Of a stretch of 64,000 bases of DNA, positions 5,887 to 53,556 are shown piece by piece. The notes below the pieces were generated by a model. It was given only the letters and a program-made list of their open reading frames with translations. It made no database searches and was not told the origin of the DNA. The translations under genes and the position numbers were made by a program. The stretch's first letter is position 1; the number at the start of each line of letters is the position of its first letter. The stretch is from positions 62,001-126,000 of the forward strand of contig NZ_CP045644.1 in assembly GCF_009498455.1 (NCBI RefSeq), read 5' to 3'. The stretch is from Variovorax paradoxus (GTDB lineage Bacteria > Pseudomonadota > Gammaproteobacteria > Burkholderiales > Burkholderiaceae_C).

Positions 5887-6413
5887 CCACGAACGTGTTG
5901 GCATCGCGTGTCGATGCGGCATGGGCCGTACTGCACACCGTGCCCGACCCCGAGGTGCCGGCCGTGTCGGTCTGCGACCTGGGCATCGTGCGCGAGGTGA
6001 TCGAGCACGACGACGGCCTCGAGATCGTGCTCACGCCGACCTACTCCGGCTGCCCCGCGACGGAAGCCATCGAGCACGACGTGCTGGCCGCGATCCAGAA
6101 CGCCGGCTTGGGCCGCGCCCGCGCCACGCTGCGCCGCGCCCCCGCCTGGACCAGCGACTGGATCAGCGACGAAGGCCGCGACAAGCTCAGGGCCTACGGC
6201 ATCGCGCCGCCCGCCCACCTCACGCCCGAGCAGGCCGCCAACACCGCCGTGCCGATCAAGCTCTTCGGCCGCATGGCCGGCGAGCGCATCGCCTGCCCAC
6301 GCTGCGCCAGCGAGCGCACCGAGCGGCTCTCGGCCTTCGGCTCGACCGCCTGCAAGGCGCTCTACCGCTGCATGGCCTGCCGCGAACCCTTCGAACATTT
6401 CAAGCCTATCTGA
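5883..6413 (+). CDS. paaD: PaaD, Fe-S/zinc maturation factor for the epoxidase
   Basis: 176 residues: an N-terminal MIP18/DUF59-type domain (PDPEVPAVSVCDLGIVREV, then TPTYSGCPATEAIEHDV) and a C-terminal zinc ribbon (CPRCASERTER ... CKALYRCMACREPF). PaaD helps mature the iron-sulfur cluster of PaaE. The start is GTG at 5883, in a GTGA overlap with the paaC stop; the frame's only upstream ATGs lie deep inside paaC, so translational coupling is the best reading. Confidence 0.92.
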   Translation: MTTNVLASRVDAAWAVLHTVPDPEVPAVSVCDLGIVREVIEHDDGLEIVLTPTYSGCPATEAIEHDVLAAIQNAGLGRARATLRRAPAWTSDWISDEGRDKLRAYGIAPPAHLTPEQAANTAVPIKLFGRMAGERIACPRCASERTERLSAFGSTACKALYRCMACREPFEHFKPI

Positions 6414-6425
6414 GGCACGCCCACG

Positions 6426-37491: not shown

Positions 37492-38112
37492 TCAGGCGTT
37501 ACGCAGTTCGGTCTTGCGCTGCACGATGCGCGAGACCAGCCCGTACTCCACGGCCTCCGTGGCCGACAGCCAGCGGTCGCGCTCGATGTCGGCCAGCACC
37601 ACCTCGAGGGGCTTGCCGGTTTCGCGCGCAATCTCGTGCGCGATGCGCTGGCGGGCCTTGAGGATTTCCTGCGCCTGAATCGCGATGTCGGTCGCCTGCC
37701 CGCCCGCGCCGCCGCTGGGCTGGTGGATCAGAAAGCGCGTGTTCGGCAGGCACACGCGGCGCTCGCGCGGCGCCGCCAGGAACAGGTGCGTGGCCGCGCT
37801 GCCGACCCAGCCGGTGCCGATCATGTGCACCGGCGCGCTGATGAAGCGCACCACGTCATGAATGGCGTCGCCCGACTCCAGGTGCCCGCCCGGCGAGCTC
37901 ACGAGGATGTCGATGGGCTTGTCGCTGCTGTCGGCATCGAGCGCGATGAGCCGGCGCGTGACATCGGCCGCCACGCTGTCGGTGATGCTGCCGAAGATCA
38001 GCAGCGTGCGCGACTTGAACGCTTTCTCCTCGAGGTAGGAATTGCGCGGCTCGGCGGTGGCCGCGGGCGGCGTGTCGTCGTCGGTTTCCAGCGTTGAAAA
38101 CATGGGCTGCAT
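37492..38112 (-). CDS. ClpP-family serine protease paralogue
   Basis: 206 residues. The ClpP core is conserved: SSPGGHLESGDAI, catalytic S105 in GTGWVGSAATHLFLAA, H130 in FLIHQPSGGAGGQATDI and D179 in IERDRWLSATEAVEYGLV. The usual N-terminal ClpP gate (ERAYDIYSRLLKERVIF type) is replaced by a divergent DDDTPPAATAEPRNSYLEE, so ATPase docking may differ. No clpX or trigger factor gene is adjacent, so this is a secondary ClpP. ATG at 38112 follows AGGAG by eight bases. It is 76 bases downstream of the sigma-factor gene on the same strand. Confidence 0.87.
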   Translation of the reverse strand: MQPMFSTLETDDDTPPAATAEPRNSYLEEKAFKSRTLLIFGSITDSVAADVTRRLIALDADSSDKPIDILVSSPGGHLESGDAIHDVVRFISAPVHMIGTGWVGSAATHLFLAAPRERRVCLPNTRFLIHQPSGGAGGQATDIAIQAQEILKARQRIAHEIARETGKPLEVVLADIERDRWLSATEAVEYGLVSRIVQRKTELRNA

Positions 38113-38188
38113 GAAGAAAGCTCCTGTGGTTGATCGGTCCTGGCGAACAAGCCCACAGTTTCGTGACATTGCGCGTGCCGTGGCAAGC

Positions 38189-38821
38189 TCAGGCGGCCAT
38201 CCGGGGCGACACCACGGCCCGTCGGGGCGTACCGACGCCGGCCAGCACCGCGCGCCCCGTCATCGCGCCGCAATGGTCCAGCGCCTGGCGCAGGACGGTG
38301 TCCACGTTGCGCAGCGACAGGCCGTAGTGCGAGGCCACCTCCTGGCGTGTCTTCTCCTCGATGCGCAAGGCCTCGAGCACGGCCCGGTGACGCCGCGGCA
38401 GGCCCTGCATCGCGCGATCGACCGAGCCGACTTCGGCGCGCACTTCGGCCATGTCCTCGGGCCCGGGCGCGTGGTCGATGGCCGCCTCGACGGCGGTGTG
38501 CGGGTCGTCCACATAGCGCCATGCCCCCTCGCTGCGCAACCGGTCCATGGCCACGTTGCAGGCCACGCGATAGACATAGGCGCTGGGGTTCTCCACGGGC
38601 GCGCACACCCGCAGGTGACCCAGCCGCAGCCAGGCGTCGTGCAGACATTCGCTGGCCATCTCGGCGCACCCGAGATGGCGGGTCAGCTTGCGCCGCAGCC
38701 CTTCGTAGTTGGCGCAGAGAAAAACCTGCAGCGCCAGGCGACGCTGCGCTTCGTCCCGCAGTTCGCCGGCCGCGTCGTCGCGCGCCGGCGCTGGCTGTTC
38801 ACAAAGGACACTGGGTGCCAT
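38189..38821 (-). CDS. ECF sigma factor downstream of the exoprotein gene
   Basis: 210 residues. Region 2 is seen as HLGCAEMASECLHDAWLRLG then PSAYVYRVACNVAMDRLR, and region 4 as LPRRHRAVLEALRIEEKTRQ then VASHYGLSLRNVDTVLRQAL. It is FecI-like in style. It starts 20 bases after the stop of the giant exoprotein gene, so read-through would co-express it. No anti-sigma gene lies next to it; it may use the FecR at 50243-51262, act independently, or feed back on the exoprotein promoter. Confidence 0.85.
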   Translation of the reverse strand: MAPSVLCEQPAPARDDAAGELRDEAQRRLALQVFLCANYEGLRRKLTRHLGCAEMASECLHDAWLRLGHLRVCAPVENPSAYVYRVACNVAMDRLRSEGAWRYVDDPHTAVEAAIDHAPGPEDMAEVRAEVGSVDRAMQGLPRRHRAVLEALRIEEKTRQEVASHYGLSLRNVDTVLRQALDHCGAMTGRAVLAGVGTPRRAVVSPRMAA

Positions 38822-38841
38822 GACATGCCGCCCCTGCCCGC

Positions 38842-41800
38842 CTAGCGGTCCTGCTGCAGGCGACGACGCTCGTCGCTGCTCAGGCCGGCCCAGTGCTTCG
38901 GGTCGATCTTGCGGCCCATGCCCACCACCTGCACGGGGTTCTGCGGGTCGTAGTCGACCTGCGCCCCGGATTGCAGCCCCGACCGCGGCGGCGGCGCGTC
39001 GCGCCCTTCTTGTGCAGGCTCGTTGCCGAAGCCGAGCACACGCACCGTGAAGACCGACGCCAGCGCCTGCCGCGCGGCCGTGCGCTCGCGCTGCACCGCG
39101 TCCTGCGCCGCGGCCGTCGCCTGCGCAGCGGCGGCGCTCGCGTTGGTGAGCGCGCCGATGTTCACTGCCGCGATCACCGGCAGGCCCTTGGTCTCGCCCT
39201 TGACCTGGATGTTGTCCGCGTTGAGCACCTGCAGCGCTGCAATGTTCAGGTTGCCCGCCACGCGCAGGCCCGCGTCGCCGGCGTTCACGGTGCCGCGCGG
39301 CGCCACCAGGTCGACGTCGCCGTCGCCCACGGTGCCGATGCCGCTGCCGCTCATGTCCGACTTCTCGCGGATCACCGTCACGCCGTCCAGGTCGGTGACC
39401 ACCTCGGGTGCCGACGGCACGCGCAGCGTCTTGGAGCCGCGGCCCGCATCGATGTCGCCGTCGGTGGCCCAGATGATCTGGTCGCTGCCCTGCTGGGTGA
39501 CCTCGGGCACGAAGGACAGGATGCGCGACTGGTTCACCGTCACGTCGTCCTTCGCGAAGATGCCGATGTGCCCCGAGGCCAGCGTCACCAGGCCATAGCC
39601 GGCCGGCACCGTGGCCCCCAGCGCCGCCACCTGCAGGCCCCCGCCGGGCGTGAGCACGCCGATGTCGCCGCCGGCCATCGTGCGCAGCATGAGCTTGTTG
39701 GCCGCGACGTCGCCCTTCCAGCCGTCGCCCGGGAACAGCGTCTTGATGGCCACATAGCCGCGGTTGTAACCGCCGTTGCGCGGCAGCCCGCCGGTGCCCG
39801 GTTCGTTCTGGTCGCGCCCCGCTTCGCGCAGTTCGATCAGGTAGATCTGCCGCAGGAACTGCTGCTGCGCGAGCGCAGGCAGCTGCTGGAAGCGCGCCCA
39901 CGCGTCCAGCGGTGCCAGCGTCTCGCCGGTCATGTCCTTCATGTACGACACAAGGCCCCGGCGCACGGTTTTTTCCTGTCCGCCCGGGCGGGTCTCGACC
40001 CGATCGGTCAGGTAGGCCGGAAGCACGCTGCCGTCCGCGCCGGCGCTTTGAAGGTACGAAGGCATGGAGGCCACCCTCGACGGGTCGAGGTAGGCGCTGG
40101 CGAACGCGCCGTAGCCCACCGCGCCGTTCATGCCCGCCATCACCGTGATCGAGGCACCCTGTTCGGGCAGGCCCTTGATCTGCGTCCCGTCCATGGGTCG
40201 GTTGTTCAGGTCATATTGCTGGTTGCCCAGGGTCTGGACCTTCAGGTTGTCTGCATAGACGTCACGCCCGGCGGACAGCACCAGGGTGCCGGGCCCTTGT
40301 ATCGCAATGCTGCCCGTGTCCTCGATAACGTTCATGGTCGCGGCACGCACGTTCGCCATCGCCAGGATGTCGTTGCCGGCTTCCAGCAAGGTCACGTCGC
40401 TGGCCCGCACATTTCGCGCATTGACACGCATGCCGCGGATATCCGTTCCGGCCCGCACCCAGGTCTGCTCATTGGTCGTCAGGTCGAGCCCCAGGATGGA
40501 ACCCTGTCCGGCATAAAGGCGGCTCGGTTCAAAGTCGCTTGCCAAGGGCAACACATCCGGATTGTTGACTGAGGTAGCGATGACATGGGACCCCATCTGG
40601 TTGGCAAGCAACCTTTCCATCGCCTCAGAACCCGTAGCTCCAGCGCTGGGCAAGAACGCGGAAGGCAACATGCCGGGTGTGGCACGGGGCATGGCCAGCT
40701 GAGCTTCCAGATCTCCGCGACTGCCCAACTGAAAAAGAGCTTCGCGATTCTGTGTCGCAAAGCGTATGTCACCTTGCGCAATGAATTGCACATCGTTCGT
40801 CGCGGCTGGCATGACCCACAAAGGCCCTTGTATTTCAAGGCTGCCGTTCATGGCAAAAGCAGCTGTGTGCGCCGGGAAACGGTTGCCACCCGCGCCGATC
40901 AGGTTGTTCTGGCCCGTGTCGCCGAAGCGCAGGGACAGGTCGTGGAATATGAATTCGGGCTGATTGACAAACGTGATATTTCCGCCGGTGGACACCAGCT
41001 TGAGTGCCGTGCGATCCGTGTAGCCGCTCATGTAAGCGCCGTAATCCAGTTTCGGCAAGGCACCTGCACCGCTCCCGTCGTCACCATAGCGGACAAGGAG
41101 AGGGTCCACCACCGTCTGCACGCGCAAGTCGCCCGCCGTGCGCACCTTCAGGGTGGCATCGCCCAAAGCCAATACCGGTGCCACAGAAAAGGTGTAGGTA
41201 CTGCTATCAACGGCCCCTTCGTTCCATATGACCGATACCGTGTTGCCGACCGCTGTTTCACCGGCCTTGATGTCACCCGCACCGCGTGCCACGTAGTACT
41301 GACCACCGCGTATCGCGCCGCCGGCCTCGACCGTCAGGGTGCCGCCGTTGCGCACCTCCATCGCCATCGCTTCGGTGGCCGAGCGGCCGCCGCGCATGCG
41401 CATGGTCGTGGGCAACACCACCACCAGGTTGCCCAGGTCGCCGCCGGCGTTGACCGTCACGTTGCCGCCACCCAACGCGCCCACACCCTGCTTGAACGCG
41501 CCATGGTTGATCCACCAACTCGATTGCTCGGGCGGCAGCGTCAGAGGGCCCCAGGAGCCGTCCGGCCGCGTACCGTACTCACCACTCTCGTATTCACCGA
41601 AGTAGCCCTGTGAGTTGAGGGCGCCCTGCCGGTTCAACCACTCCGTGAATCGCTGGCCGGCCGGCTGCGCCACGACGCTGCCCTGCGCACTGATGTCCAG
41701 GTTGCCGCCGTCAGTGCCGTAGATCGCGGCCGCATGGGCCGTCGTGAAGTCGCTCCAGGCCGTCATGTCCTTGCGTCCAGCCGTGTAGATCACCGACTCC

Positions 41801-44800
41801 TTGTGCGCCAGCGTCAGGTCTCTGCCCGCACGCACCTCGAGGTCACCGGTACCGGTGCGAACCAGCTTGCCTGCACCGTTGTCGATGGCGGTGTCTGGAT
41901 CCGTGTCGGCCGTGCCGATGGTGAGGGTGCCGCCACCGGCTGCTTGTGCTGCCAGCGGCTTGACCGCCAGCGTGTGGGCCGAGTCCAGGTCGGCGCCTGC
42001 AACCAGGCGCAGGTTCCACGAAGCGCCTTCCTGCAGCTTGCCTGCGCGGTCGGCGGTGTCAAAGCCGTCACTCAGGTGACCATTGACGACCAGGTTGCCA
42101 CCAGCCCTGAGCGTGAGCGTGCCTTCCCTTGCGTTGGCAAAGTCGCTGCGCAGGTTCCAGTCGCTGTTCATGGCCAGGTCGCCGGCGCTTTCGATCGTGA
42201 TGCCGGGCATGACGGCCAGGCTGGTGCCCAGGCGTGCCGCCACAGCGGGCGCCGCTGCGCTGAACTGGTTGGCATCGGCAATTGCAGCGGCTTTGACGGA
42301 GTCGACCGTGCTGCTGTTGTAGGTGGCAACACCCTCGAGCACCGCCGAGCGCGCACCGGCGATGCTGACGTTGACGGCGGTGGCGTGGAGGTCGTTGTGA
42401 GCCGCATTTTGCTGCGCACGCAGCCTGACCTTGCCGCCTTCGTTGCCGGCCACGTCGATGGCGCCGCCCCGCAGGTCCAGTTGCCCGCCCGCCGCTTCAA
42501 GGGTGACGCGGCCGCTGCCCAGCTCACCGGTGGCGCCGGCCAGCAGCTGCGCGCCGGCATTCATCGTCACCCCATTGCCGCCGGTGATGCGGATGGCGCC
42601 GCCGTAAGCGGCCCTTGCATCGACGGTGCCTGCAATCGTGATCCTGCCCTGGTCGGTGGTCAGGCCGAAGTCTTCCACCGTGGTGGTGCCGTCCAGCGTG
42701 ATATCGCCCTGGCGGATGCGGAACTGCCGTGAGCGGTTGAAGCCCGCAGCGTTCAGACGCTGACTGAAGCTGGCAAAGCCGGCCAGCTCGGCAATATCGA
42801 GCGAGAAGGCGCCGGCTTTGCCGCCCGTGCCCGCTCGTGCATTGATCGTGCCGTCCAGCACGACGGTGCCGCCGTCGGCGGCCGCGACGTTCAAGGCGCC
42901 GGCGTTGCCGCCGTCCTTGTGGGCCGCGAGGTTGAGATGGCTGCCGCTGCTCAGCCGCACGTCGCCGCCCACAGCCGAGAGCTTGATGCTTCCCGCATCG
43001 GCATACGCGGCCACGTCGAAGAACTGTTTGGCAAAGCCGCCGACGTCGATCTGCGCGCCATCGCCCAAGGTCAGGCTGCCGGCAGTCGCCGTCATGTCGA
43101 CGCTGCCGCCAAGCGCCACAGCGCGGCCGCCGAACACAATGCTGGCGCCGGACAGGCTCAGGCGTGAACCGAGGCTGTCCTGCAGATCTTGTGGGGCTGA
43201 ATCACCCCCTGCTGTTGCCAGGACTTGCAATGCACCGGTGGTGGTGATGCTTTGTGCGGCACCGCCACGGCCTGTGAGCAGCGGGGTGTTCAAGGTCAGC
43301 GCGATGGCGCCGGTGTCGATGCCGCCTTTGCCAGTACCGACGATGCGATCACGGCCACCCAAGGCAATGCGATGGAAGCCGGCGAAGTTCTTCTGGCCCG
43401 CCCCCAGGACCAGGGTCGTGGCGTCCAGCGTGAAGCTGCCGGTGCCGTTGCCTGTTGCGGCCAGGTTGGCGCCGCTGTTCTCCAGTGCAATCGTGTCGCC
43501 CTTGATGACGATGTCGCCGCCATGACCGGTGAAGGCAGCGCCGTCGAAGGTCAACGAAGCCAGGCCCGCCGCACCGAGGTCGACGGGTTGGTGGAAGTCG
43601 AAGCTCGAGTAGCTGCGCAGGGTCAGGTGTTTTGAATTGGCCAACTGGGCCAGACCGGCGCTGTCCAGCACCATGCCGCTGCCACCGCCGAAGCCGATGC
43701 GACCGGCGGCCACCGAGAGGTCAACGCCCGATATCTGCGCCGACGCTGCAAGCTCCGTGGTGCGCGTGGCGTCGATCAGCAGGGAGTCGCCACCGTTCAG
43801 GACTGCACCGGCACCGAGGGTGACCACACCGCCTTGCGTGGTGTCCACGTTCTGGCGCACAACCTTGATCGCATCGCCATTGGCCACGCGAATCAACGCA
43901 CCCCAGTCTTTGGCCGGCGTCACCAGGACATCGTCGGCGGTGTCGGGTGTGCCTTTGCTGTCGTAGACCGCAGCCTGCTGCGGCTTCATGATCAGGTTGC
44001 CGCTGCTGCTGGCGCCCGTGCCCTTGGCGCTGACGAGGCTGCCGGCGTCCACGGCGACCTTGTCGGTGGCGGCCAGGATGATCTCCGGCGCAAACAATTC
44101 GGAGCCGGTGCCGTTCCTCACGACGATGTCGGTGGCCGTCACGTCGAGTTGCGTGCCCAACAGGTCTCCCTTGCGCGTGCCGCCCACCAGCAGGCTGCCG
44201 GCACCGAAATTCGAGAGGCTGGCGGCATCGATCGTGAGGTAGCCGTCTGCCTGCAGCGTGCCTGCGTCCCGGCCGGCACCGACGATGGCGATCTTCTTGC
44301 CGGCGATGTCGACCAGGCCGCCGCGGCCGCCCTTGTCGGCCTGCGACAGCAGCGTGCCGTCCAGCGTCAGGCGCGTGGTTGCGTCGAACACGACAGCGCC
44401 GCCGTCGCGCGACAGGCGCGGGGTCACCACGTCCTGCCCTGTCAGGCGGTATTGCGTGAGCTTGAAGGCGTCCGATGAGAAGAAGTCGTTGGCGAAGGCT
44501 TCGTTGTATTCGCTGTATTTGCGCAGGGTGCTGCCGGACATGACGCGCCAGACAGAGGCGTGCGCCTCTTCGCTGTGGCCGTAGGCGTTGCTGTTCCTGC
44601 CTTGCATGATGATGCTGCCGTCGCGCGTGGCGAAGCCGGGCGCGGCCTCGCCCGCCCAGGCTTTGCCGGTGGCCTGCACGGCAAAGGCGCCGGGCAGCAG
44701 GGCGTAGCGCGCAGGCAGCAAGGTGTACCAGCCGGCCGCCAGGCCGGGGCCACCGGCCAGCCAGATTCGGCTGCCAGCCTCCACACCGCTGACGGGCGCA

Positions 44801-47800
44801 GTGGCCTGCTGGCCCGGCATGACGGCATACATGCCGGGCCGCGTCAGCACATCGTTCGAGCCGCCCGGGCCGGGAACAAATTCCCAGGCGTACAGATCGC
44901 CGCCGCCGGCGATGTCGATGACCGCGCCTTTGGCGAGGTCGACATTCGGCGACTTCATCGTGATCCGCTTCTCGGGCGGCGACGTCAACGAACCGCTCGA
45001 GGGATTGGCGCCATCGCTCGCCTTCGTCGGGTCGTTCCAGTGCTCGTTGTTCGACAGCGTCCCGTAGGGCACCGTCAGGCCCGCGCCCGAGACCGACGTG
45101 ATGCTGCCAGCGCCCAGCGTCAAACGATCACCGGCCACCAGTTCGATCTGCCCGAACGGGGCCCGCAGCACGCCGTTCTGTTCGATCACCGGCGCCTCCA
45201 ACCGCAGCGTCCCTCCTGCCGACAAAGGCAGCACGGAAGAATTTCCGGAACGCCCCACGGTGATGGATTCACCGGACAGGATTTTTGCGTTCACGGCGAC
45301 GGACGGGTACACTAGGCCGGCGGTGATGGCCAATGCACCGTCCACATCCAGTGTTGCCGTGGCGGCATCCGCAGCCATGCCTGGATCCACTGCGGCGTTC
45401 TTCGCGCTGAAGCGCAGTTCCGACGCATTCAACGACGTTTTCGCAAAGCTGCGAATGCTCGCGGGCCCGAAGGTGGACCCCGGTCCATTGACGCCGCCCA
45501 CGACATCGATCACGTCCGCGTTCACGGTCAAACTTCCCGTGCGATGGGCCGTGGCAGCCGGCGCAATGAGGGAAGCCGTTTGCTTGAGCCCGATATAGGC
45601 CGCCGCCAGGCTTGCGTGTCCGGATTCCCCGACGGCATGGCGCAGCGTGCCATCGACCGTGATGCTCCGGTTCGCGGAAAGCCGCACATCACCCAGCTCG
45701 ATCGCCCCCCCCTGGGAGGCCAGAGCGAGATTGGCAAAACCACCCTCGGCAAAAGATGTGGGACGCGCCACCAGCAATGAACTCGACGGGGTCAGGGCAC
45801 GCAGGTCGATGGAGAGTTCGTTCTTGAACAAGTCCACGACTTCGTCGCTCATTCCAAGCGCAGCGTAGTCAATTCCGGGCCCACCCTGCCCTGCGCCGGA
45901 AGACGCCGTGTTGGAGACGACCAACGAATTCCTGGAGGCCGAGCCCAGATGGTCAAGCACCGCCTGGGTGATGACCATGGGTGCTTTTTCGCCGGGGCCG
46001 TATCCCAGCAGCAGCGCGAAATCGACGCCGACGACGCTTTCCGGCGTACAGAAGGACGAATCGATCTGGCAAAAGGACTGCAGGAGCTGGTCGGCCAGGT
46101 TGGTGCTCGCACCGGCGGCCACTTGCTGGATCGACACGGAGCCGCCTTGCGCGCCCTTCCCCCCGGCCTTTCCGACCAGCGTGGAAGCAATCAGTCCTTC
46201 GCCACGAATGTTGATTGCACCGCCGTCACTGGCCAGCCCCCGCTTTTTGTAGCTGATCCGCCCGAATGCACCACCTGCCTGCGCCTGTTCAATCTCCCCG
46301 CTCGCGCCCGACACGTCGATCAGCGAACCCGCCGCCAGCTGCACATCCGCGGCATGAATATCGACGACACCACCCGACAACACATTGCCTTGAAGGTGCC
46401 CGGTCTTGTCCAGGTCAATCGCAGGGAGGCCGCGTGCCAGCAACTGCGCCTCCGACTCCAGCCTGACGGTCTTGCCGCTCAGGTCGATCCGTCCCGCAGG
46501 CGCTTCCAGGCGGCCCCGTACCGTCAGCGCACCGACGCCACCCGCAGCCAGTGTCAACTTGCCGCCGGTATCGGTCACGATGGATGCACCCGACCCGACA
46601 TGGATGTCGCCGGCTTCCGTGCCCAGGGTCAGTCCGCCCGGTCTGCGCTCGAGACGCTCCTGCGGGCTCAGCACGGCAATCGGCGCTACCGCGGCAAGGC
46701 GCGTGCCGGTCGCCACGTCCTGGTAGGCAAAGGAAGAATTCAAATCGATACCGACCGCCTGCTGCGTCACGGTCGCACCGTCAGGCACCACGATGCCGCC
46801 GTTGCCGCGGACCGCGACCGACACGGTGCCAAAACCGCGGTCGCCAAACAGGTTGGCGGGCAAGACCACGACCGCGGGATCGGTGCTTGCACCGCCCACT
46901 TGCACGGACGAAGGCGTTTCAAGGAACAGGCTGCCGGCTGAACCCGCTGCATACGCACGCAGGTTCAATGAGCCCAGATCCATGTCCGGCGTGACGCCCG
47001 TCAAGCGGAGGGAGCCGGCGTTGCCAACACGCAATGCAGGCAGGCCCTTCTTGCCGATATCGATGCGGCCGCCACCGGAAACATCCAACACGGCGTTCTT
47101 GTCGGCAAGGATTTTCCCGGCATTGAGGGTGATGGCACCGCCATCCATGGCCCAAGGCCCGGAGGACCTCCCGTCACGCCAGGCATTGATCCATTGGCCG
47201 GAAACATCCAGGCTGCCCTGCGCGCCCATCTCCAGTTGTCCGTAGAGCGAATCAAGGGAGATGGAACCGCCTGCCGACCGGACCCTGCCGTTGACACGGA
47301 TGGTGCCGGTCGAATTTTCACCACCGGTCACAACCAACGAGGTGGCGGGCGAGAACTCGAGTTTGGCGCCCGTGGCCAGCTCGACGTCGCCGTTGATGAT
47401 GAAGAAATTGACCTGGCCCATGCCCGAACTGCCCAGCATGTCGTCGGACAGAAAAGTCAATTTCTTTGACCTTGGCGTGGCGGGGTCCAGGGGAACGTAG
47501 AAGTCCTCGCCCAGCGCGGTACCGGCGTTGAATGCACTGCCCAGGCGTTGGGGATCATGGCTGACGATGAGGGTGCCTGGCGACCAGGCTTTGTCCTCCA
47601 CCCTGCCGCCACCCAACACCAACTGGCCCCCTTTGTTGCTGGCCGGTTTATTTTGTTGGCGATCCCCCGTGATGACACCGCCCCACATGTCGCCTTCGAG
47701 CACCATGGCGTCACCGGCGAATATCTGGACCGCGCCCGCCTTGCGGCCTTCGGTGTACCCGGCTTCCTTGAAGTCGCCGCCGATCAACGCGCTGCGCCAG

Positions 47801-50142
47801 GTCGTGTTCACGCCCCAACGCGCATGCGTTTGCGCAAACCGGCCGGCAAGCCCCGTGTATTCCATGTCGGGCATGGCGCTGCTCATCGTGTAGATGCCGC
47901 CATTGGCGCCCGCGAGTTTTGTGGCGGTGTTCATGCCGTCCGAATAGCGCACCGAACCGCCGGAGATGTCGAGCAGCGAGCCGGCACGCGTGATGACGGC
48001 GCCGCCAGCACGCAGCATGATGCTGCCGGCGTCGGCCGACAGCTCCCGCAGGTCGGTCTTGCCCACGCCGATCCAGCCGGTCACATCCGCCAGGGGGGTG
48101 CCTGCCCACTCGCCTGGCATGTAGACCATCTGGCCGTTGCCGTCCGTCCTCTGGACCCACTTCACGCCCGCCATCGGTCCGTTGCCGAACACGCCGTTTT
48201 CCCGGCGGTCGACGATCACTTTCTGGCCGCGCAACCAGGAGTTCAGCAGCAGCGGTGAATCGCGCAACTCGTTGATGCGCAACTCCGCCTCGACGAAGTT
48301 GCGCGACATCGGCACCCGCATGTCGCGCAGACCCGCCACGCTGAGAAAGGCATCGCTGTCGAGGTAGATCCGGCTGTCGTCTCCCGCACTCCGCAGCACG
48401 CCCCCGAACAACGGGTTGGCCGCCGTTTCGATGTTGATCTTGCCTGCGGGTGCCAGCACGCCGGCTTTCGACTGGATGTCGATCAGCTTGCCGTACATGC
48501 CGATCCAGCCCGGCTGGTAGCGGGTGCCCAGCGCGGACGCTTCGATCTCGCTGGTGTCGGTGGCGTCCGGCATGATTTGCGTCACGCTGCCACTGCCCAG
48601 CGTCAAGGTGCCTGCCGACCAGTTGTAGAACCGGTCAATGTCGCTGCCGTACTCGCGTGTCCCCAAACCCCAGGCACGCAACTGGATGGAACCATTGCGG
48701 TTGTTCAAAGCGGTGGTCGACAGCAACACGCCGTTCTGGCGAACGTCCTGTGCCTGCAGGGTGATGTTGCCCCGGTCGGACTGCACGACGCCGTGATTGA
48801 CCACTTCGTAACCCACCGCCTTCGCGCGCGCGGCCATTTCCGGCATCACGACATCGCGCACGCCGTTGGCGTAGGGATAGGGGACCTGCGACAAGCCAAG
48901 CGCGGCATTCAAAAACGAACTATTCAATGCCCAGCCCGGCACTGCCGACACGGCAACGTCCAGCCCGCGCACCGGATTCGGGTCCTGCGCCGAGGGGGTT
49001 TTGAGGTAGACGTTTTCGCCGGCCGCCAGGATGACCTGGCCGTCCGGCGCAGAGAGGCGCCCGGCATTGCTCACCTTGGGCGCGAAGAGCATGATCTTGC
49101 CGCCGCTGCTCACACTCAGCCCTGCGCCTGCCGCGACCGTGACGGCACCGGGCGGCAAGCCGGGGTCGAATCGATCGACCTCACCGAGGCGGTCCGGCAC
49201 CACACCGTGGCCCGGAACATAGCCGCCGTCCTGGCTGTAAACCCAAGGCTTGTGCGCGGTGAATTCCCCGAATTGCGGAATGGGGTACTCAGCGCTCTGG
49301 TGCTCCATCAGCTGCGCGTTGTTGATGCCCAGCTTGAATTGCTGGTCGGTCAGGCGCAGCGAGCTGGCGACCAGGCTGCGCGTGTTCACCTGGCTCGATC
49401 CATGGAAGACGATGCCGTTGCGGTTGATCAGGTACACCGACCCGTCGGCCTGGATCTGCCCGGCGATCTGGCTGGGCCTGCCGCTCGGGTCGTTGATGCG
49501 GTTCAGCGCGATCCAGCTGTTGGTGCCGTCCTTCACGTTGCGCCCCTTCGACTGGTCGAACTTCACCGTGGTGTTCTTGCCCACGTTGAAGCTCTCCCAG
49601 TTCAGGATCGCCTTCTCGTCGGTCTGCTCGATACCCACCACCGTGCGCCCGCCCGCGGCCGTCTGCACCGGCGCCTTGGCGTTGAGCCAGCCGGCCGTCA
49701 GGCTGTGGGTGTCGACCTTCAGGCCGCCGTCGGCCAGGCCGTCGGGCACGTCCGAGGCGCCGGCCAGCGCGGCATTGCGCGCCGCCTCCTGCGTGGCCTG
49801 CTGTGCGGCGATGCCGCGAGCGGCCAGGTTCAGGTTGTCGATGGAGCGCTGCAGCTGGGCGTTGTCACGCTGTTGCACGGCCAGCGGGTTGGTCAGCATC
49901 GATGCCGGCATGCCGTTGGGCAGGCGGCCCGTCGCCGAGGCGGTGCTCTGCATGGCACTCTTGTTGGCGAACCAGGCGCCGCTGAAGGCCTGTTGGGCCT
50001 GGGCATCGAGCACCATTGCGCCGTTGGCCGCCAGCGTCATGGCAATGGCGCGCGCGATCGGCGCCATGCGAAAGCGCCGCGCCTGCCGCCGGGTGCGCGC
50101 CTTCGTTGCGTGGATCGGTGTGATTGGCCCGCGTGTGCTCAT
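38842..50142 (-). CDS. Giant filamentous-haemagglutinin-family secreted exoprotein (TpsA-like)
   Basis: 3766 residues. A long basic N-region and hydrophobic stretch (signal cut near AQAQ, residue 50) lead to a TPS secretion domain at about 160-270 (ILNWESFNVGKNTTVKFDQ; NSWIALNRIND; INRNGIVFHGSSQVNTRSL, where NRNGI takes the NPNGI place). A huge repetitive beta-helix body follows, and the C-terminus (about 3590-3690) looks like DUF3739. The frame is unbroken over 11.3 kb. The likely role is adhesion, biofilm or contact-dependent interaction. It follows fecR by 100 bases with its own promoter-like motif. No TpsB transporter gene is in the window. Confidence 0.93.
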   Translation of the reverse strand: MSTRGPITPIHATKARTRRQARRFRMAPIARAIAMTLAANGAMVLDAQAQQAFSGAWFANKSAMQSTASATGRLPNGMPASMLTNPLAVQQRDNAQLQRSIDNLNLAARGIAAQQATQEAARNAALAGASDVPDGLADGGLKVDTHSLTAGWLNAKAPVQTAAGGRTVVGIEQTDEKAILNWESFNVGKNTTVKFDQSKGRNVKDGTNSWIALNRINDPSGRPSQIAGQIQADGSVYLINRNGIVFHGSSQVNTRSLVASSLRLTDQQFKLGINNAQLMEHQSAEYPIPQFGEFTAHKPWVYSQDGGYVPGHGVVPDRLGEVDRFDPGLPPGAVTVAAGAGLSVSSGGKIMLFAPKVSNAGRLSAPDGQVILAAGENVYLKTPSAQDPNPVRGLDVAVSAVPGWALNSSFLNAALGLSQVPYPYANGVRDVVMPEMAARAKAVGYEVVNHGVVQSDRGNITLQAQDVRQNGVLLSTTALNNRNGSIQLRAWGLGTREYGSDIDRFYNWSAGTLTLGSGSVTQIMPDATDTSEIEASALGTRYQPGWIGMYGKLIDIQSKAGVLAPAGKINIETAANPLFGGVLRSAGDDSRIYLDSDAFLSVAGLRDMRVPMSRNFVEAELRINELRDSPLLLNSWLRGQKVIVDRRENGVFGNGPMAGVKWVQRTDGNGQMVYMPGEWAGTPLADVTGWIGVGKTDLRELSADAGSIMLRAGGAVITRAGSLLDISGGSVRYSDGMNTATKLAGANGGIYTMSSAMPDMEYTGLAGRFAQTHARWGVNTTWRSALIGGDFKEAGYTEGRKAGAVQIFAGDAMVLEGDMWGGVITGDRQQNKPASNKGGQLVLGGGRVEDKAWSPGTLIVSHDPQRLGSAFNAGTALGEDFYVPLDPATPRSKKLTFLSDDMLGSSGMGQVNFFIINGDVELATGAKLEFSPATSLVVTGGENSTGTIRVNGRVRSAGGSISLDSLYGQLEMGAQGSLDVSGQWINAWRDGRSSGPWAMDGGAITLNAGKILADKNAVLDVSGGGRIDIGKKGLPALRVGNAGSLRLTGVTPDMDLGSLNLRAYAAGSAGSLFLETPSSVQVGGASTDPAVVVLPANLFGDRGFGTVSVAVRGNGGIVVPDGATVTQQAVGIDLNSSFAYQDVATGTRLAAVAPIAVLSPQERLERRPGGLTLGTEAGDIHVGSGASIVTDTGGKLTLAAGGVGALTVRGRLEAPAGRIDLSGKTVRLESEAQLLARGLPAIDLDKTGHLQGNVLSGGVVDIHAADVQLAAGSLIDVSGASGEIEQAQAGGAFGRISYKKRGLASDGGAINIRGEGLIASTLVGKAGGKGAQGGSVSIQQVAAGASTNLADQLLQSFCQIDSSFCTPESVVGVDFALLLGYGPGEKAPMVITQAVLDHLGSASRNSLVVSNTASSGAGQGGPGIDYAALGMSDEVVDLFKNELSIDLRALTPSSSLLVARPTSFAEGGFANLALASQGGAIELGDVRLSANRSITVDGTLRHAVGESGHASLAAAYIGLKQTASLIAPAATAHRTGSLTVNADVIDVVGGVNGPGSTFGPASIRSFAKTSLNASELRFSAKNAAVDPGMAADAATATLDVDGALAITAGLVYPSVAVNAKILSGESITVGRSGNSSVLPLSAGGTLRLEAPVIEQNGVLRAPFGQIELVAGDRLTLGAGSITSVSGAGLTVPYGTLSNNEHWNDPTKASDGANPSSGSLTSPPEKRITMKSPNVDLAKGAVIDIAGGGDLYAWEFVPGPGGSNDVLTRPGMYAVMPGQQATAPVSGVEAGSRIWLAGGPGLAAGWYTLLPARYALLPGAFAVQATGKAWAGEAAPGFATRDGSIIMQGRNSNAYGHSEEAHASVWRVMSGSTLRKYSEYNEAFANDFFSSDAFKLTQYRLTGQDVVTPRLSRDGGAVVFDATTRLTLDGTLLSQADKGGRGGLVDIAGKKIAIVGAGRDAGTLQADGYLTIDAASLSNFGAGSLLVGGTRKGDLLGTQLDVTATDIVVRNGTGSELFAPEIILAATDKVAVDAGSLVSAKGTGASSSGNLIMKPQQAAVYDSKGTPDTADDVLVTPAKDWGALIRVANGDAIKVVRQNVDTTQGGVVTLGAGAVLNGGDSLLIDATRTTELAASAQISGVDLSVAAGRIGFGGGSGMVLDSAGLAQLANSKHLTLRSYSSFDFHQPVDLGAAGLASLTFDGAAFTGHGGDIVIKGDTIALENSGANLAATGNGTGSFTLDATTLVLGAGQKNFAGFHRIALGGRDRIVGTGKGGIDTGAIALTLNTPLLTGRGGAAQSITTTGALQVLATAGGDSAPQDLQDSLGSRLSLSGASIVFGGRAVALGGSVDMTATAGSLTLGDGAQIDVGGFAKQFFDVAAYADAGSIKLSAVGGDVRLSSGSHLNLAAHKDGGNAGALNVAAADGGTVVLDGTINARAGTGGKAGAFSLDIAELAGFASFSQRLNAAGFNRSRQFRIRQGDITLDGTTTVEDFGLTTDQGRITIAGTVDARAAYGGAIRITGGNGVTMNAGAQLLAGATGELGSGRVTLEAAGGQLDLRGGAIDVAGNEGGKVRLRAQQNAAHNDLHATAVNVSIAGARSAVLEGVATYNSSTVDSVKAAAIADANQFSAAAPAVAARLGTSLAVMPGITIESAGDLAMNSDWNLRSDFANAREGTLTLRAGGNLVVNGHLSDGFDTADRAGKLQEGASWNLRLVAGADLDSAHTLAVKPLAAQAAGGGTLTIGTADTDPDTAIDNGAGKLVRTGTGDLEVRAGRDLTLAHKESVIYTAGRKDMTAWSDFTTAHAAAIYGTDGGNLDISAQGSVVAQPAGQRFTEWLNRQGALNSQGYFGEYESGEYGTRPDGSWGPLTLPPEQSSWWINHGAFKQGVGALGGGNVTVNAGGDLGNLVVVLPTTMRMRGGRSATEAMAMEVRNGGTLTVEAGGAIRGGQYYVARGAGDIKAGETAVGNTVSVIWNEGAVDSSTYTFSVAPVLALGDATLKVRTAGDLRVQTVVDPLLVRYGDDGSGAGALPKLDYGAYMSGYTDRTALKLVSTGGNITFVNQPEFIFHDLSLRFGDTGQNNLIGAGGNRFPAHTAAFAMNGSLEIQGPLWVMPAATNDVQFIAQGDIRFATQNREALFQLGSRGDLEAQLAMPRATPGMLPSAFLPSAGATGSEAMERLLANQMGSHVIATSVNNPDVLPLASDFEPSRLYAGQGSILGLDLTTNEQTWVRAGTDIRGMRVNARNVRASDVTLLEAGNDILAMANVRAATMNVIEDTGSIAIQGPGTLVLSAGRDVYADNLKVQTLGNQQYDLNNRPMDGTQIKGLPEQGASITVMAGMNGAVGYGAFASAYLDPSRVASMPSYLQSAGADGSVLPAYLTDRVETRPGGQEKTVRRGLVSYMKDMTGETLAPLDAWARFQQLPALAQQQFLRQIYLIELREAGRDQNEPGTGGLPRNGGYNRGYVAIKTLFPGDGWKGDVAANKLMLRTMAGGDIGVLTPGGGLQVAALGATVPAGYGLVTLASGHIGIFAKDDVTVNQSRILSFVPEVTQQGSDQIIWATDGDIDAGRGSKTLRVPSAPEVVTDLDGVTVIREKSDMSGSGIGTVGDGDVDLVAPRGTVNAGDAGLRVAGNLNIAALQVLNADNIQVKGETKGLPVIAAVNIGALTNASAAAAQATAAAQDAVQRERTAARQALASVFTVRVLGFGNEPAQEGRDAPPPRSGLQSGAQVDYDPQNPVQVVGMGRKIDPKHWAGLSSDERRRLQQDR

Positions 50143-50176
50143 GAGTCGTGTCCGCCGGAAAGTTGAGTCGATGCAC

Positions 50177-50216
50177 TACGACGAACGGGCGCCCCATGAC
50201 CCCGCAACTTATTTTT
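50177..50216 (-). promoter_or_regulatory. Candidate ECF-sigma promoter of the exoprotein gene
   Basis: Read on the minus strand, AAAAATAAGTTGCGGG (upstream block) and GCCCGTTCGTCGTA (downstream block) are separated by 10 bases. The CGTC-type downstream block ends 34 bases before the start codon, giving a short leader. The same two blocks, one base closer, precede the fecR-like gene at 51332-51370. Conservation of both blocks in noncoding DNA is the evidence; which sigma reads them is inferred. Confidence 0.65.
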
Positions 50217-50242
50217 CAGGCCGCGCACCACGGCCACTCGAT

Positions 50243-51262
50243 TCAGCTGAGAACGGTCAACCCGCCCGGCAACGAACGGGCGTCGAGATCGAAGGCATGC
50301 TGCAGCTGCGCCAACGCCAGGTCGAGCGAGGCGATGTAGAAGCTGCCCGTGACCAGGCGGCTGCGCGCGGCCGTGTTCATCAGCACCACGCGGCCGCGCC
50401 GGTAGCGGTTGATCTCGTCGAGCACGTCGGACAAGCGGGCCTGCGTGAACACCAGCTCGCCCTTGCGCCAGGCCGACAGGTTCGCGGCGCCGACCAGCGC
50501 CACGCTGCTCACCGACGTGCCGTCGTACACCGTCTGCTGGCGCGCGCGCAGCTCACGCGCGCCCGCGGGGTGCTCCACGCGCACCGCGCCTTCGATGCAG
50601 GTCACGCACACCTTGGCGTCCAGGTAGCGGACCTCGAAACGCCCCGACTCGGCCAGGCTGCGGCCGGCCCCGGCCACCACGCCGAAGGGCCGCGCGCCGC
50701 TGCCGGACGACAGATCGAAGGCGGCCTCGCCCTCGAGCAGGTCGACGCCGGTGGTCCGGCCGTCCACCGTGCGGCGCCGGATGCGGGTCTGCGTGTTCAG
50801 CGTGACCTGCACCCGCTCGGTGAGGCCCACTTCCAACTGCTCGCCGGTGGCGGTGCGGTAGTCGGCGCCCCATGCCGCCGGCGCGGGCCACAAGCCCGCG
50901 GGCGGATGGAACACCGCCACGCCCGCGACGCCGGCCATGGCCGCCGCGCCCGCCGCCGCACCGAGGAAGCCGCGGCGCGCGAGCACCGGCCGGGTCCGGT
51001 GACGCGCATGAAACGCCGCCGCCTCGGCATTGGTGCGAAGCACGGCGGCAGAGGCCGGGCCGAGCACGGCCCATTGCGCCTTCGCTTCCCTGAAGACCGC
51101 CGCGTGCGCCGGGCTGCGCGCCAGCCAGTGCTTGAAGCGCTGGGCGTCCTGCGGCTTGACGGCACCCGAATGAAACAGGCGCAGCCACTCCCAGGCCTCG
51201 TGCCGCGTCGTGTCGGGCCCGAGGGCGGGATCGTCGGCGGTTGCCATCAGGGGGTCGTGCAT
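50243..51262 (-). CDS. FecR-family anti-sigma/regulator
   Basis: 339 residues. The cytoplasmic DUF4880 domain (about 20-62; HEAWEWLRLFHSGAVKPQDAQRFKHWLA) is followed by a membrane helix (about 98-118) preceded by twin arginines at 96-97 (LARRGFLGAAAG) and a periplasmic FecR domain (about 134-228; TATGEQLEVGLTERVQVTLN). FecR proteins hold or activate their ECF sigma in response to a periplasmic signalling domain. The ATG at 51262 has a better upstream site than 51247. It lies between the sigma gene and the exoprotein gene. Confidence 0.9.
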   Translation of the reverse strand: MHDPLMATADDPALGPDTTRHEAWEWLRLFHSGAVKPQDAQRFKHWLARSPAHAAVFREAKAQWAVLGPASAAVLRTNAEAAAFHARHRTRPVLARRGFLGAAAGAAAMAGVAGVAVFHPPAGLWPAPAAWGADYRTATGEQLEVGLTERVQVTLNTQTRIRRRTVDGRTTGVDLLEGEAAFDLSSGSGARPFGVVAGAGRSLAESGRFEVRYLDAKVCVTCIEGAVRVEHPAGARELRARQQTVYDGTSVSSVALVGAANLSAWRKGELVFTQARLSDVLDEINRYRRGRVVLMNTAARSRLVTGSFYIASLDLALAQLQHAFDLDARSLPGGLTVLS

Positions 51263-51331
51263 CACGGCCGCGGCCCTTCTTCGGGGCCTCGGCCCGCTGC
51301 GAGCGCCAGGGAGATTCGAGTCTTCACTCCG

Positions 51332-51370
51332 TACGACGAACGGGCCGCGCCGATCCCGCAACTAATTTTT
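51332..51370 (-). promoter_or_regulatory. Candidate ECF-sigma promoter of the fecR-like gene
   Basis: On the minus strand AAAAATTAGTTGCGGG and GCCCGTTCGTCGTA are separated by nine bases, matching the motif upstream of the exoprotein gene. The upstream block overlaps the last codons of the sigma gene, and the downstream block ends 69 bases before the fecR start. Confidence 0.65.
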
Positions 51371-51880
51371 GTCATGGGCCATCCGGGCACTCAGGTAGTC
51401 GTGCGCATGCTTGAGTTCGTACTCGACGGTGCGCAGGGAAATGTCCAGGCGCCGGGCCACCTCGGGCTGCGTCAGCCCCTCCATGTGCACGAGCACGACG
51501 ACCTCGCGCCGCCGCGCCGGCATGCGGTCCAGCAGCTTGACCACGGCGTCCAGCTGCGAACGCGCCTCGGCGATCCGCGCCGGACCGGGCGCCGTGTCGG
51601 CCAACTCCATCAGCGCGTCGATCTCGTCGAACGGCAGGTTGCGGCTCTGGCGACGCTGGATGTCCAGCGCGATGTTGAAGGCCATGCGCACGAGATAGCC
51701 GCCCGGCCGCTGGATCGGCCCCGCGTCGCTTGCGCCCTGGTCGTTCACGCGCAGCCAGGTGTCGTGCAGCGCGTCCTCGGCCAGGTCTGCATTGCGCAAC
51801 GCGCGGCCCAGCTGGCGCTTGAGGGCGTCGTAGTGCCTGGACAGGTAGTCCATGAGCACGGGGCGGACGTCTTCGGCCAT
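51362..51880 (-). CDS. ECF sigma factor (FecI/VreI-like)
   Basis: 172 residues, the FecI length. Region 2 is LRNADLAEDALHDTWLRV then RPGGYLVRMAFNIALDIQRR, and region 4 is MPARRREVVVLVHMEGLTQP then EVARRLDISLRTVEYELKHA. ATG at 51880 lies seven bases after the STN-TonB gene stop. With that gene and fecR it makes a three-gene signalling cassette. The likely targets are the twin promoters at 51332-51370 and 50177-50216. Confidence 0.9.
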   Translation of the reverse strand: MAEDVRPVLMDYLSRHYDALKRQLGRALRNADLAEDALHDTWLRVNDQGASDAGPIQRPGGYLVRMAFNIALDIQRRQSRNLPFDEIDALMELADTAPGPARIAEARSQLDAVVKLLDRMPARRREVVVLVHMEGLTQPEVARRLDISLRTVEYELKHAHDYLSARMAHDKN

Positions 51881-51887
51881 GGACGGG

Positions 51888-52646
51888 TCAGGACGGCGCG
51901 CGGCCGACCGCGTCGCGGCAGCGCGTTCCGCCGCGCGCATCGGTGGGCAGGATGAGCAGCGTCAGGGGCTGCGGCATGTCTGGCGGCGGCGCATGCGCGA
52001 GGCGCACGCTGCGCAGGACCTCCAGCATCTCGGCGTCCCGGGCCGCGTCGCCGGTCAGGCCAAGCAGGCGCGGCCGGCGCAGCTGGCCCGCCTCGTCCAC
52101 CTCGAAGCGCAGCAAGGACCGGTACGTTCCCGGCCGTGTGCGCGCGTTGCCGCACAACGCGTCCCAGACGCGCGCCTGCAGCAGGCTGGGGTAGCCCGCG
52201 AGGCTTCCAAGGCTGGCCGCGCGCGGGACCTCCGCCCGGGCCTGCGCCGGCTTCAGCGCGAGCGTGATGGCCGAACCCGTGCGGACCTTTTCGGCCACCA
52301 GGCCGGTGCCCTCCAGCAACAGTTCAAGTGCGACGTCGGGGGCGTAAAGCCCGCGCACCGCCGAGGACGTCAGCTCGGCCAGGATTTCGCTGCGAAAGAG
52401 TGCCGGCTGCCGCGTGACGGCGGCATAGCGCTTGAGCGCATCGGCCAAGGGAAGCGAGGGAATGTCGAACGCCAATGCGGCGTCATCCGTGCCGGGCACG
52501 GCACCGGCGGGGACCTCGCCCTCACGCAGCGGGGATGCAAGCCCGTCGCTGGCCCAGGCCGTGCCGGCCAGCCAGGACAGCGCGAGCGCGCAGAGTGCGA
52601 CGCTGCGGCCTGCCGAGCCCGCGAACCCAGGGTGCACCTCGCTCAC
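51888..52646 (-). CDS. Periplasmic STN-TonB_C signalling protein (VreA-like)
   Basis: 252 residues. A signal peptide (about 1-32) is followed by an STN domain at about 60-131 (FDIPSLPLADALKRYAAVTR, then VRGLYAPDVALELLLEGTGL) and a TonB C-terminal-like domain at about 151-233 (GYPSLLQARVWDALCGNAR; YRSLLRFEVDEAGQLRRPRL). There is no plug or beta-barrel, unlike FecA-type receptors. VreA of P. aeruginosa PUMA3 is a comparable barrel-less signal protein. It is the first gene of the cassette and would present the STN domain to FecR. Confidence 0.85.
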   Translation of the reverse strand: MSEVHPGFAGSAGRSVALCALALSWLAGTAWASDGLASPLREGEVPAGAVPGTDDAALAFDIPSLPLADALKRYAAVTRQPALFRSEILAELTSSAVRGLYAPDVALELLLEGTGLVAEKVRTGSAITLALKPAQARAEVPRAASLGSLAGYPSLLQARVWDALCGNARTRPGTYRSLLRFEVDEAGQLRRPRLLGLTGDAARDAEMLEVLRSVRLAHAPPPDMPQPLTLLILPTDARGGTRCRDAVGRAPS

Positions 52647-52878
52647 CCCCGAGGCGCAACGATGCCGCGCGCATCGTCACTCGCGCCGTGAGGATGCGAA
52701 AGCCATGGCAGGGGAAAGAGTCGAGTCGGCAAGGAACGCACGCCAGTCGGGAAACTTGCATGCTGTCACCGGTGTGTGACGGTCTCGTTGCAACGTCAGA
52801 CTTTCGTACGACTCGGCGTGGCGGGCATCCCGTGCGCCGCGGGAAGCCCGGGGCTCCCCTTGGGTGGCTGACTGCCCC
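52647..52878. other. Intergenic region upstream of the signalling cassette
   Basis: This 232-base gap separates lolD from the STN-TonB gene, both on the minus strand. A weak partial match to the twin promoter motif is seen at about 52801-52832 (GTACGAC on the plus strand, then CCCG at similar spacing), without the A/T-rich block. Otherwise I see only short GC-rich dyads and no gene. Confidence 0.4.
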
Positions 52879-53556
52879 TCAGCCCGCCAGCCGCCCCGCC
52901 ACCAGCTGCAGCACGCGATCGCAGCGCTTGGCCAGGTCCTGGTCGTGCGTGACCATCACGAAGGCCGTGCCGTGCCGGTGCGCAAGGTCGAGCATCAGCG
53001 CGAACACGGCGTCGGCGGTGCTGCGGTCGAGGTTGCCGGTGGGCTCGTCGGCCAGCACGCAGGCGGGCTGCGTGACCAGCGCGCGCGCAATCGCCACGCG
53101 CTGGCGCTCGCCGCCCGACAGCTCGGCCGGCCGGTGGTGCAGGCGCTCGCCCAGGCCTACGCTGGCCAGGGTCTTCGCGGCGGCCTGCGACGCCTCGCCG
53201 GTCTCGACGCGGCGGATCTTCAGCGGCATCGCGACGTTGTCGAGCGCGCTGAACTCGGGCAGCAGGTGATGGAACTGGTAGACGAAGCCCAGGTGATGGT
53301 TGCGCAAGCGGCCCTGCTCGGCGGCGTCGGCGTGCGCGATGTCCTTGCCGAGCAGTTCGACCTTGCCCGCGGTGGGCGCGTCGAGCCCGCCCATCAGGTG
53401 CAGCAGCGTGCTCTTGCCGGAGCCCGACGCGCCGACGATGGCCAGCGTTTCGCCGGCGTGCACGTCGAGGTCGACACCGTGCAGCACGGTGAGATCGATG
53501 CGGCCTTCATGGAAGCGCTTGGTAAGGCCGCGGGCCTTGAGAACGACATCACTCAT
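52879..53556 (-). CDS. lolD: LolD, lipoprotein-releasing ABC ATPase
   Basis: 225 residues. Walker [10 protein letters not shown] near residue 42, the LolD motif [20 protein letters not shown], signature [15 protein letters not shown] and Walker [13 protein letters not shown] place it in the LolD/MacB group. It powers extraction of outer-membrane lipoproteins from the inner membrane with LolC/E. Its start overlaps the lolC/E stop by eight bases. Confidence 0.93.

Follow-up and report, generated by a model that had tools for sequence, protein, structure and literature searches.

The closest described relative of the locus analysed here is the PUMA3 signalling system of Pseudomonas aeruginosa, whose vreAIR genes are driven by PhoB (PMC4971064). 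The system also comprises hxc, lapA and pdtA, and phdA ahead of pdtB. The same organism carries a gene run, pdtB-exbB2-exbD2-tonB4-PA0696, that continues to PA0699, where PA0696 is a putative porin and PA0699 a peptidyl-prolyl isomerase (PPIase) (PMC2729926, PMC7035377). In the literature searched, experiments on PUMA3 come from this one opportunistic pathogen, in which neither a function of VreA nor the signal is known (PMC7035377). A 2009 study also reported PUMA3 clusters repeated four times in Janthinobacterium and Rhodopseudomonas palustris, with tpsA coming after three of these clusters (PMC2729926). Here, we describe a gene cassette in a 64,000-nucleotide stretch of Variovorax paradoxus DNA (contig NZ_CP045644.1, positions 62,001 to 126,000; “the window”), in which genes of the vreA, vreI and vreR types lie directly in front of a gene for a giant exoprotein. 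Sequence comparison indicates that this cassette is probably one of five PUMA3-type (VreA-VreI-VreR) units in the genome, each dedicated to its adjacent exoprotein, a TpsA protein of two-partner secretion (TPS) with a DUF3739 domain.

The initial annotation of the window had proposed five genes on one strand. All five were found in the claimed order on the minus strand, with transcription running from high to low coordinates. The genes, including those for two extracytoplasmic function (ECF) sigma factors, the second of which we call ECF2, and their main domains are:

51888..52646, minus strand: VreA-like protein, with a signal-peptide-like N-terminus (by eye), an STN signalling domain, a TolA/TonB-like C-terminal domain and invariant C165 and C243
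51362..51880, minus strand: VreI-like ECF sigma factor, 172 residues
50243..51262, minus strand: VreR-like FecR/DUF4880 anti-sigma factor, 339 residues, with an RRGFL motif like that of twin-arginine translocation signals
50597..50608, minus strand: CVTC codons within the FecR domain
38842..50142, minus strand: TpsA exoprotein, 3766 residues
49336..49683, minus strand: TPS secretion domain (Pfam), exoprotein residues 154–269
39175..39489, minus strand: DUF3739 domain (Pfam), exoprotein residues 3552–3656, near the C-terminus
38189..38821, minus strand: ECF2, the second ECF sigma factor, 210 residues, 20 bases past the exoprotein stop

The anti-sigma factor (PF04773 and DUF4880), both sigma factors and the TPS and DUF3739 domains of the exoprotein all scored above the Pfam cut-offs. 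The start of the first sigma gene was unchanged at refinement, whereas that of ECF2 was refined to the ATG at 38821. The anti-sigma reading frame can open at a TTG at 51361, but the ATG at 51262 was preferred because the TTG falls within a promoter-like element described below.

The association between cassette and exoprotein recurs within the genome itself, which yielded six TPS and five DUF3739 matches. Each of the five DUF3739 exoprotein genes (copies c1, in the window, to c5) is immediately preceded on its strand by STN, ECF and FecR genes. The sixth TPS protein is accompanied by a TpsB of its own, and no FecR match lies near it. Named genomes were also scanned with the TPS domain of the exoprotein, and the best 80 of 402 relatives were kept as a close sample, of which 74 were testable, six others (L059, L070, L076, L084, L090 and L106) having too little upstream DNA. 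In 67 of these 74 loci, all three cassette genes lie upstream of the exoprotein gene, on the same strand and within 4.2 kb, in genera that include Variovorax, Janthinobacterium, Herbaspirillum, Pigmentiphaga, Azoarcus, Cupriavidus, Bordetella, Steroidobacter and Pseudoxanthomonas. A chance neighbourhood is ruled out by these two counts. On the Azoarcus contig L059 (146-1454, minus), the exoprotein match and the sigma and FecR genes are on opposite strands, and may thus be arranged divergently.

The seven close loci without a cassette, at first sight counter-examples, belong to Achromobacter, Pollutimonas and Pseudomonas. Upstream of tpsA, six of them (L071, L074, L094, L103, L111 and L117) carry a PstS/DING-like gene together with what we take to be type II secretion genes, and the seventh (L113) the PstS/DING-like gene only; PUMA3 has genes of these kinds in the same place. 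The names were assigned by eye from known families, with two L111 proteins checked by Pfam. Each of these seven genomes, and that of L106, has a protein that matches the VreA-like model in both domains, in three of the eight from model position 39–42 onwards. In three of these genomes that were checked, VreA-VreI-VreR genes lie ≈12–16 kb upstream of tpsA (L183, L184) or directly downstream of it (L185). In one Pseudomonas genome, genes for TpsB, ExbB, ExbD and TonB come after tpsA.

Sampling by DUF3739 alone reached further, taking in all 10 non-own matches at class level and 20 of 27 at order level; of the other seven order matches, one was already covered as L175 and six were not taken in, and the incomplete L193 was omitted, leaving 19 testable. 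In the adjacent DNA, the cassette was found beside the exoprotein in none of the 10 class loci and in two of the 19 order loci, and TpsB was directly upstream of the exoprotein in seven and 17 of them, respectively (24 of 29). The rarity of the cassette in this sample indicates that it is the mark of a single branch within a larger DUF3739 family. The individual loci without an adjacent cassette (L173-L182, L189-L192 and L194-L206) mostly have TpsB directly upstream, often with an ExbB fusion downstream.

The identity of the first gene was less evident from profile searches. The VreA-like protein gave no Pfam match at 1e-3, and STN appeared only at E = 0.011, below the STN cut-off; its sequence matches the N-terminus of FecA at 5e-5. 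The AlphaFold2 model (mean pLDDT, the predicted local distance difference test, 80.9; predicted TM-score 0.48) has an STN signalling fold at residues ≈54–137 and a TolA/TonB C-terminal fold at ≈145–240, and precomputed Pfam assignments give PF07660 (STN) together with PF13103, which we take to be TonB_2, in several homologs. The STN-TonB_C make-up proposed in the initial annotation is thus borne out by both folds and by the homologs. At 252 residues, the protein has no β-barrel. A Variovorax boronicumulans protein is 93% identical to it across the full length. Downstream of copy c4 (C1:4393406-4394347), a free-standing protein has an end weakly like the TonB/TolA-like domain (E = 6e-4).

Two cysteines are invariant in the VreA-like proteins (70/70) and one in the FecR proteins of the cassettes (72/72). 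The pattern C-x-x-C-x-x-G, here CVTC, occurs in 62 of the 72 cassette FecRs and in none of eight other FecRs examined from the same genome (a ninth match, L126, was outside these eight); it is also present in two Pseudomonas VreR proteins and missing from the order relative L187. A twin-arginine-like RRxFL motif, found in 61 of 72, is not specific, since three of the other eight FecRs have a similar motif.

In a tree of 48 sigma factors, 26 VreI and 13 ECF2 sequences group together, apart from eight conventional FecI sigmas of the same genome (support 100/100). The VreI set includes two Pseudomonas VreI sequences, although not P. aeruginosa VreI itself, and L149_3039, from a separate ECF-FecR pair that had been labelled VreI by script, falls among the conventional FecI. 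All 13 ECF2 are monophyletic (96/91), with a single Achromobacter sigma as their sister (98/99); by this phylogeny, ECF2 is an offshoot of VreI. It follows the exoprotein gene in copies c1, c2 and c5, and not in c3 and c4. In a genus sample, the exoprotein C-terminus was found in eight of 41 genomes. Merging of three split pairs reduced 27 loci to 24 distinct C-termini; 15 of the 24, own copies included, have ECF2 and nine do not. It is absent from the six copies whose open frames exceed 4,400 residues. Three of the genus exoprotein genes (L153, L162 and L166) contain an in-frame internal stop codon and are possibly decaying. In the window, the cassette is flanked on the same strand by a ClpP-like protease gene (37492-38169), which starts 19 bases beyond ECF2, and, immediately upstream (52879-54805), by lipoprotein transporter genes of the LolD and LolC/E types.

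Three promoter-like sites were identified in and before the cassette:

52760..52793, minus strand: PhoB-type promoter-like site of the vreA-like gene, a 7-4-7 repeat TTGCAAC GAGA CCGTCAC, a 10-base spacer and a −10-like CAGCAT
51332..51371, minus strand: ECF-type promoter-like element before the anti-sigma gene, AAAAATTA GTTGCGGG N16 CGTCGTA, overlapping the sigma stop codon
50176..50217, minus strand: ECF-type promoter-like element before the exoprotein gene, GAAAAATAA GTTGCGGG N17 CGTCGTAG

The sigma/anti-sigma junction carries a second copy of the element in the gap before the exoprotein gene. The exoprotein-gap element, AAAAATAA-GTTGCGGG-N17-CGTC-TAG, is also present in nine homologs; these were chosen for showing the motif, so that their alignment with the window illustrates it and is not a test. 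Promoters were compared in a non-redundant set of loci, 51 of 75 gaps picked by k-mer similarity, 46 of the 51 not being own copies. A core pattern, written after the sites had been seen, matched 12 of the 51 junctions (0.17 in shuffled sequences) and 13 of the 51 exoprotein gaps (0.93), with both in nine loci; the first patterns tried had matched 8, 16, 22 and 15 of the gaps (shuffles 0.4, 2.2, 3.9 and 1.3). Promoter classes differ from locus to locus, and the two regions of one locus are more alike than regions across loci: none of 2000 permutations reached the observed value, also with 32 non-redundant loci, and 24 of the 51 loci ranked their own pair in the best tenth. Control regions showed no such within-locus matching, with 374 (anti-sigma coding), 590 (sigma coding) and 285 (upstream of the VreA-like gene) of 2000 permutations reaching the observed value. 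The simplest reading of this matching is that one locus-specific sigma factor reads both promoters, and would thereby drive both its target exoprotein and its own inhibitor. The wiring from sigma factor to exoprotein put forward in the initial annotation is thus supported by comparison, through gene order, fold, sigma phylogeny and matched promoters.

The site before the vreA-like gene is of a different kind. With weights set from a general consensus, 41 of 51 loci have a pho score of at least 12 in the region before the VreA-like gene (5.7 in shuffles). When only the forward strand is counted, 38 of 51 do, compared with 3.8% of 920 windows from the same loci. A pho box plus −10 element scored at least 14 in 39 of the 46 non-own loci, compared to 2.8% of the 920 windows. 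(These windows were drawn at random and consist largely of coding sequence; it is the shuffled sequences that match in composition.) Of the 44 loci with a score of 12 or more, 41 have a distance of exactly 10 bases from pho box to −10 element. In all five own copies the best site has this layout, weaker in two, and the expected number of chance sites per 300 bases of own-genome background is 0.010 for the window, 0.064 for c2, and 0.003, 0.002 and 0.001 for the others. A strict pattern, again written after the sites had been seen, has three matches in the genome with at most one mismatch. One is in an own cassette; the other two, at the promoters of the divergently transcribed pstS and Ppx/GppA-type genes, are an independent positive control. 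The vreA-like gene is thus apparently under phosphate control via a PhoB-type promoter, as in most homologs, and the chain from envelope signal to sigma factor to exoprotein envisaged in the initial annotation was incomplete to this extent.

No TpsB, ExbBD or TonB gene is found among the cassette genes themselves. Apart from that of the sixth TPS protein, the only TpsB found in the genome (C1:4291219-4292862) is the first gene of a run that continues with an ExbB fusion (DUF2341, laminin-G, MotA/ExbB), ExbD, a TonB-like protein without a Pfam match, Porin_5, an unassigned protein, PPIase and YbjN; its order agrees with that of the P. aeruginosa run given above. In eight named relatives (L041, L048, L051, L052, L054, L055, L075 and L102), the cassette is closely preceded on its own strand by genes of this run, PPIase having been found in six of the eight; TpsB is visible in two (L075 and L102), the rest ending at the edge of the locus. 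Since its genes adjoin the cassette in these relatives, we paired this TpsB with the exoproteins. The exoprotein has an N-terminal TPS domain and a probable TpsB partner, the latter assigned by synteny in relatives. The TpsB-ExbBD-TonB-porin-PPIase operon at C1:4.29 Mb is likely to be the exporter, with one TpsB presumably common to all five copies. The cassette is therefore not self-contained, as had been suggested, because its likely exporter is encoded elsewhere. By eye, the sequence upstream of the TpsB operon (L118:9219-18059, C1:4291219-4300059) resembles the promoter of exoprotein copy c3. Divergent beside this operon (L118:8361-9131, minus) is a gene for a small, secreted-looking protein with conserved cysteines; such a protein is also encoded divergently beside the vreA-like gene (≈6100–7110, minus) in 13 relatives (L063, L064, L066, L067, L072, L080, L091, L093, L105, L112, L114, L115 and L116).

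We propose that the system would work as follows. When phosphate is low, PhoB would bind at the pho box, and transcription of the vreA-like gene and the sigma gene would follow. The FecR-type anti-sigma factor would hold the sigma factor at the inner membrane until an envelope event, perhaps relayed by the VreA-like protein, frees it. Free sigma factor would take RNA polymerase to the promoter before the anti-sigma gene, as negative feedback, and to the matching promoter before tpsA, from which read-through would yield ECF2, a possible relay or feed-forward factor. The exoprotein, with whatever activity it may have, would be exported by the TpsB encoded elsewhere with ExbB, ExbD, TonB, porin and PPIase. 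A more speculative extension, which we hold to be doubtful, is that several PUMA3 paralogues in one cell act as parallel sigma-promoter pairs under one phosphate gate. Each VreI-like sigma would read its own variant of the promoter before its anti-sigma gene and its exoprotein gene, so that different envelope cues could turn on different exoproteins independently, all exported through a common TpsB. The extension further supposes that ECF2 reports completed transcription of the giant gene and amplifies or hands on the response, and that the CVTC motif and the VreA cysteines act in thiol-disulphide sensing.

Several observations weigh against this reading, in addition to the pho weights taken from a general consensus and the patterns written after the fact. 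About half of the 51 loci fail to rank their own promoter pair in the best tenth. In the own genome, the pairing is distinctive in c1 and c2 alone, and then narrowly (22 of 32 positions for the own pair, the next best being 21 and 20); in c3–c5 it does not stand out. PMC4971064 treats vreAIR as one operon, which would not call for a separate vreR promoter, whereas vreR is considered a separate unit in PMC2729926. The pho box in the window has a weak first half, and the c2 site is not rare by the background estimate above. Deletion of vreA leaves pdtA expression in P. aeruginosa unchanged (PMC4971064, PMC7035377), and VreA may therefore not be the sensor. Finally, 27 of the 29 testable loci in the wide samples have no adjacent cassette. 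The initial annotation had named a usual lack of the cassette beside homologous exoproteins as evidence against the proposed link; such a lack is found in the wide DUF3739 family, but not in the close clade.

The same data bear on three other explanations. The main sigma factor acting on the exoprotein promoter might be ECF2, which would sustain its own expression through positive feedback, the VreI-like sigma only starting the loop. Its position just past the exoprotein stop, its presence at most of the genus C-termini and its monophyletic origin from VreI agree with this, as does the lack of any FecR found beside ECF2 in the own copies; moreover, overexpression of VreI in P. aeruginosa raised the ECF sigma gene PA0149 (PMC2729926). 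We nevertheless consider it unlikely, as ECF2 is missing from c3, c4 and nine of the 24 genus copies, and the anti-sigma promoter stands directly behind the first sigma gene. Direct control by PhoB alone, with the sigma factor acting elsewhere, would account for the pho-like repeats (score at least 12) that 19 of 51 loci have between the anti-sigma and exoprotein genes (3.0 expected) and for a weak signal of pho-like sites upstream of plain TpsB-TpsA operons (9 of 24, 3.7 expected). The window gap, however, does not appear in the listed 25 gaps with the best pho scores, and the ECF-type element within it resembles that of the anti-sigma gene, which makes this explanation very improbable. An iron-type system, in which the cassette answers a siderophore or haem under Fur repression and the exoprotein is a bystander, is suggested by the homology to FecI/FecR and by the nine other FecR matches in the genome, the sigmas of eight of which are in the tree. 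This candidate was dropped as very improbable, since the VreA-like protein lacks the receptor barrel, the cassette contains no receptor gene, the cassette sigmas group apart from the conventional FecI, and a PhoB-type promoter precedes the VreA-like gene.

The dozens of relatives in other genera with the unit beside its target turn a claim from one strain into a comparative rule of phosphate control and of locus-matched promoters for the anti-sigma and exoprotein genes. Multi-copy soil strains could provide a non-pathogen model for PUMA3-type signalling, and the conserved cysteines in the anti-sigma factor and the VreA-like protein are concrete residues for study. The locus is also a warning that not every FecI/FecR pair means iron uptake.

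The comparison with PUMA3, including the equivalence with PdtA, was made via the text and layouts of the papers on P. aeruginosa and via sequences of other Pseudomonas loci. On this basis, the match to vreA-vreI-vreR noted in the initial annotation holds: the order on one strand is the same, the first protein combines STN and TolA/TonB domains without a barrel, the sigma factor groups with Pseudomonas VreI, and a pho box precedes vreA. The likeness extends to a TPS exoprotein as target and a partner operon of TpsB-ExbBD-TonB-porin-PPIase type. Unlike in PUMA3, the cassette here touches tpsA with no hxc genes between, five copies share the genome with one distant TpsB, a second sigma gene follows tpsA, and an ECF-type element precedes the anti-sigma gene. 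No hxc type II secretion genes were found beside the cassette, whose immediate neighbours in the window are the Lol transporter and ClpP-like genes; hxc was not treated as defining, because PMC2729926 calls clusters directly before tpsA PUMA3 homologues. The testable sequence features of PUMA3 are thus present, except for hxc adjacency and a clear pho box before tpsA in the window.

The Janthinobacterium and R. palustris homologues are similar in that their clusters are repeated and precede tpsA, while tpsB-exbBD adjoins another of the copies. The system is therefore little described, as had been supposed, but not undescribed. The passage on them mentions no pho boxes outside P. aeruginosa, second sigma, paired promoters or cysteine motifs. 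In the literature searched, which covered few subscription papers and some sources in part, we found no report of these four features either; the pho promoter before the vreA-like gene in homologs, the within-locus matched ECF promoters, the second sigma and the CVTC and VreA cysteines appear to be new within that literature. DUF3739 was not mentioned in the literature searched, most subscription papers lying outside it. Plain DUF3739 operons share homologous TpsA, TpsB and ExbB fusion proteins with the system described here, but there no cell-surface signalling cassette lies beside TpsA, and TpsB is in most cases directly upstream of it. Cell-surface signalling of the FecIRA type shares the ECF sigma factor, the FecR anti-sigma factor and the STN domain; in contrast to it, the present cassette has no TonB-dependent receptor barrel, its adjacent target is an exoprotein, and it is preceded by a PhoB-type promoter.

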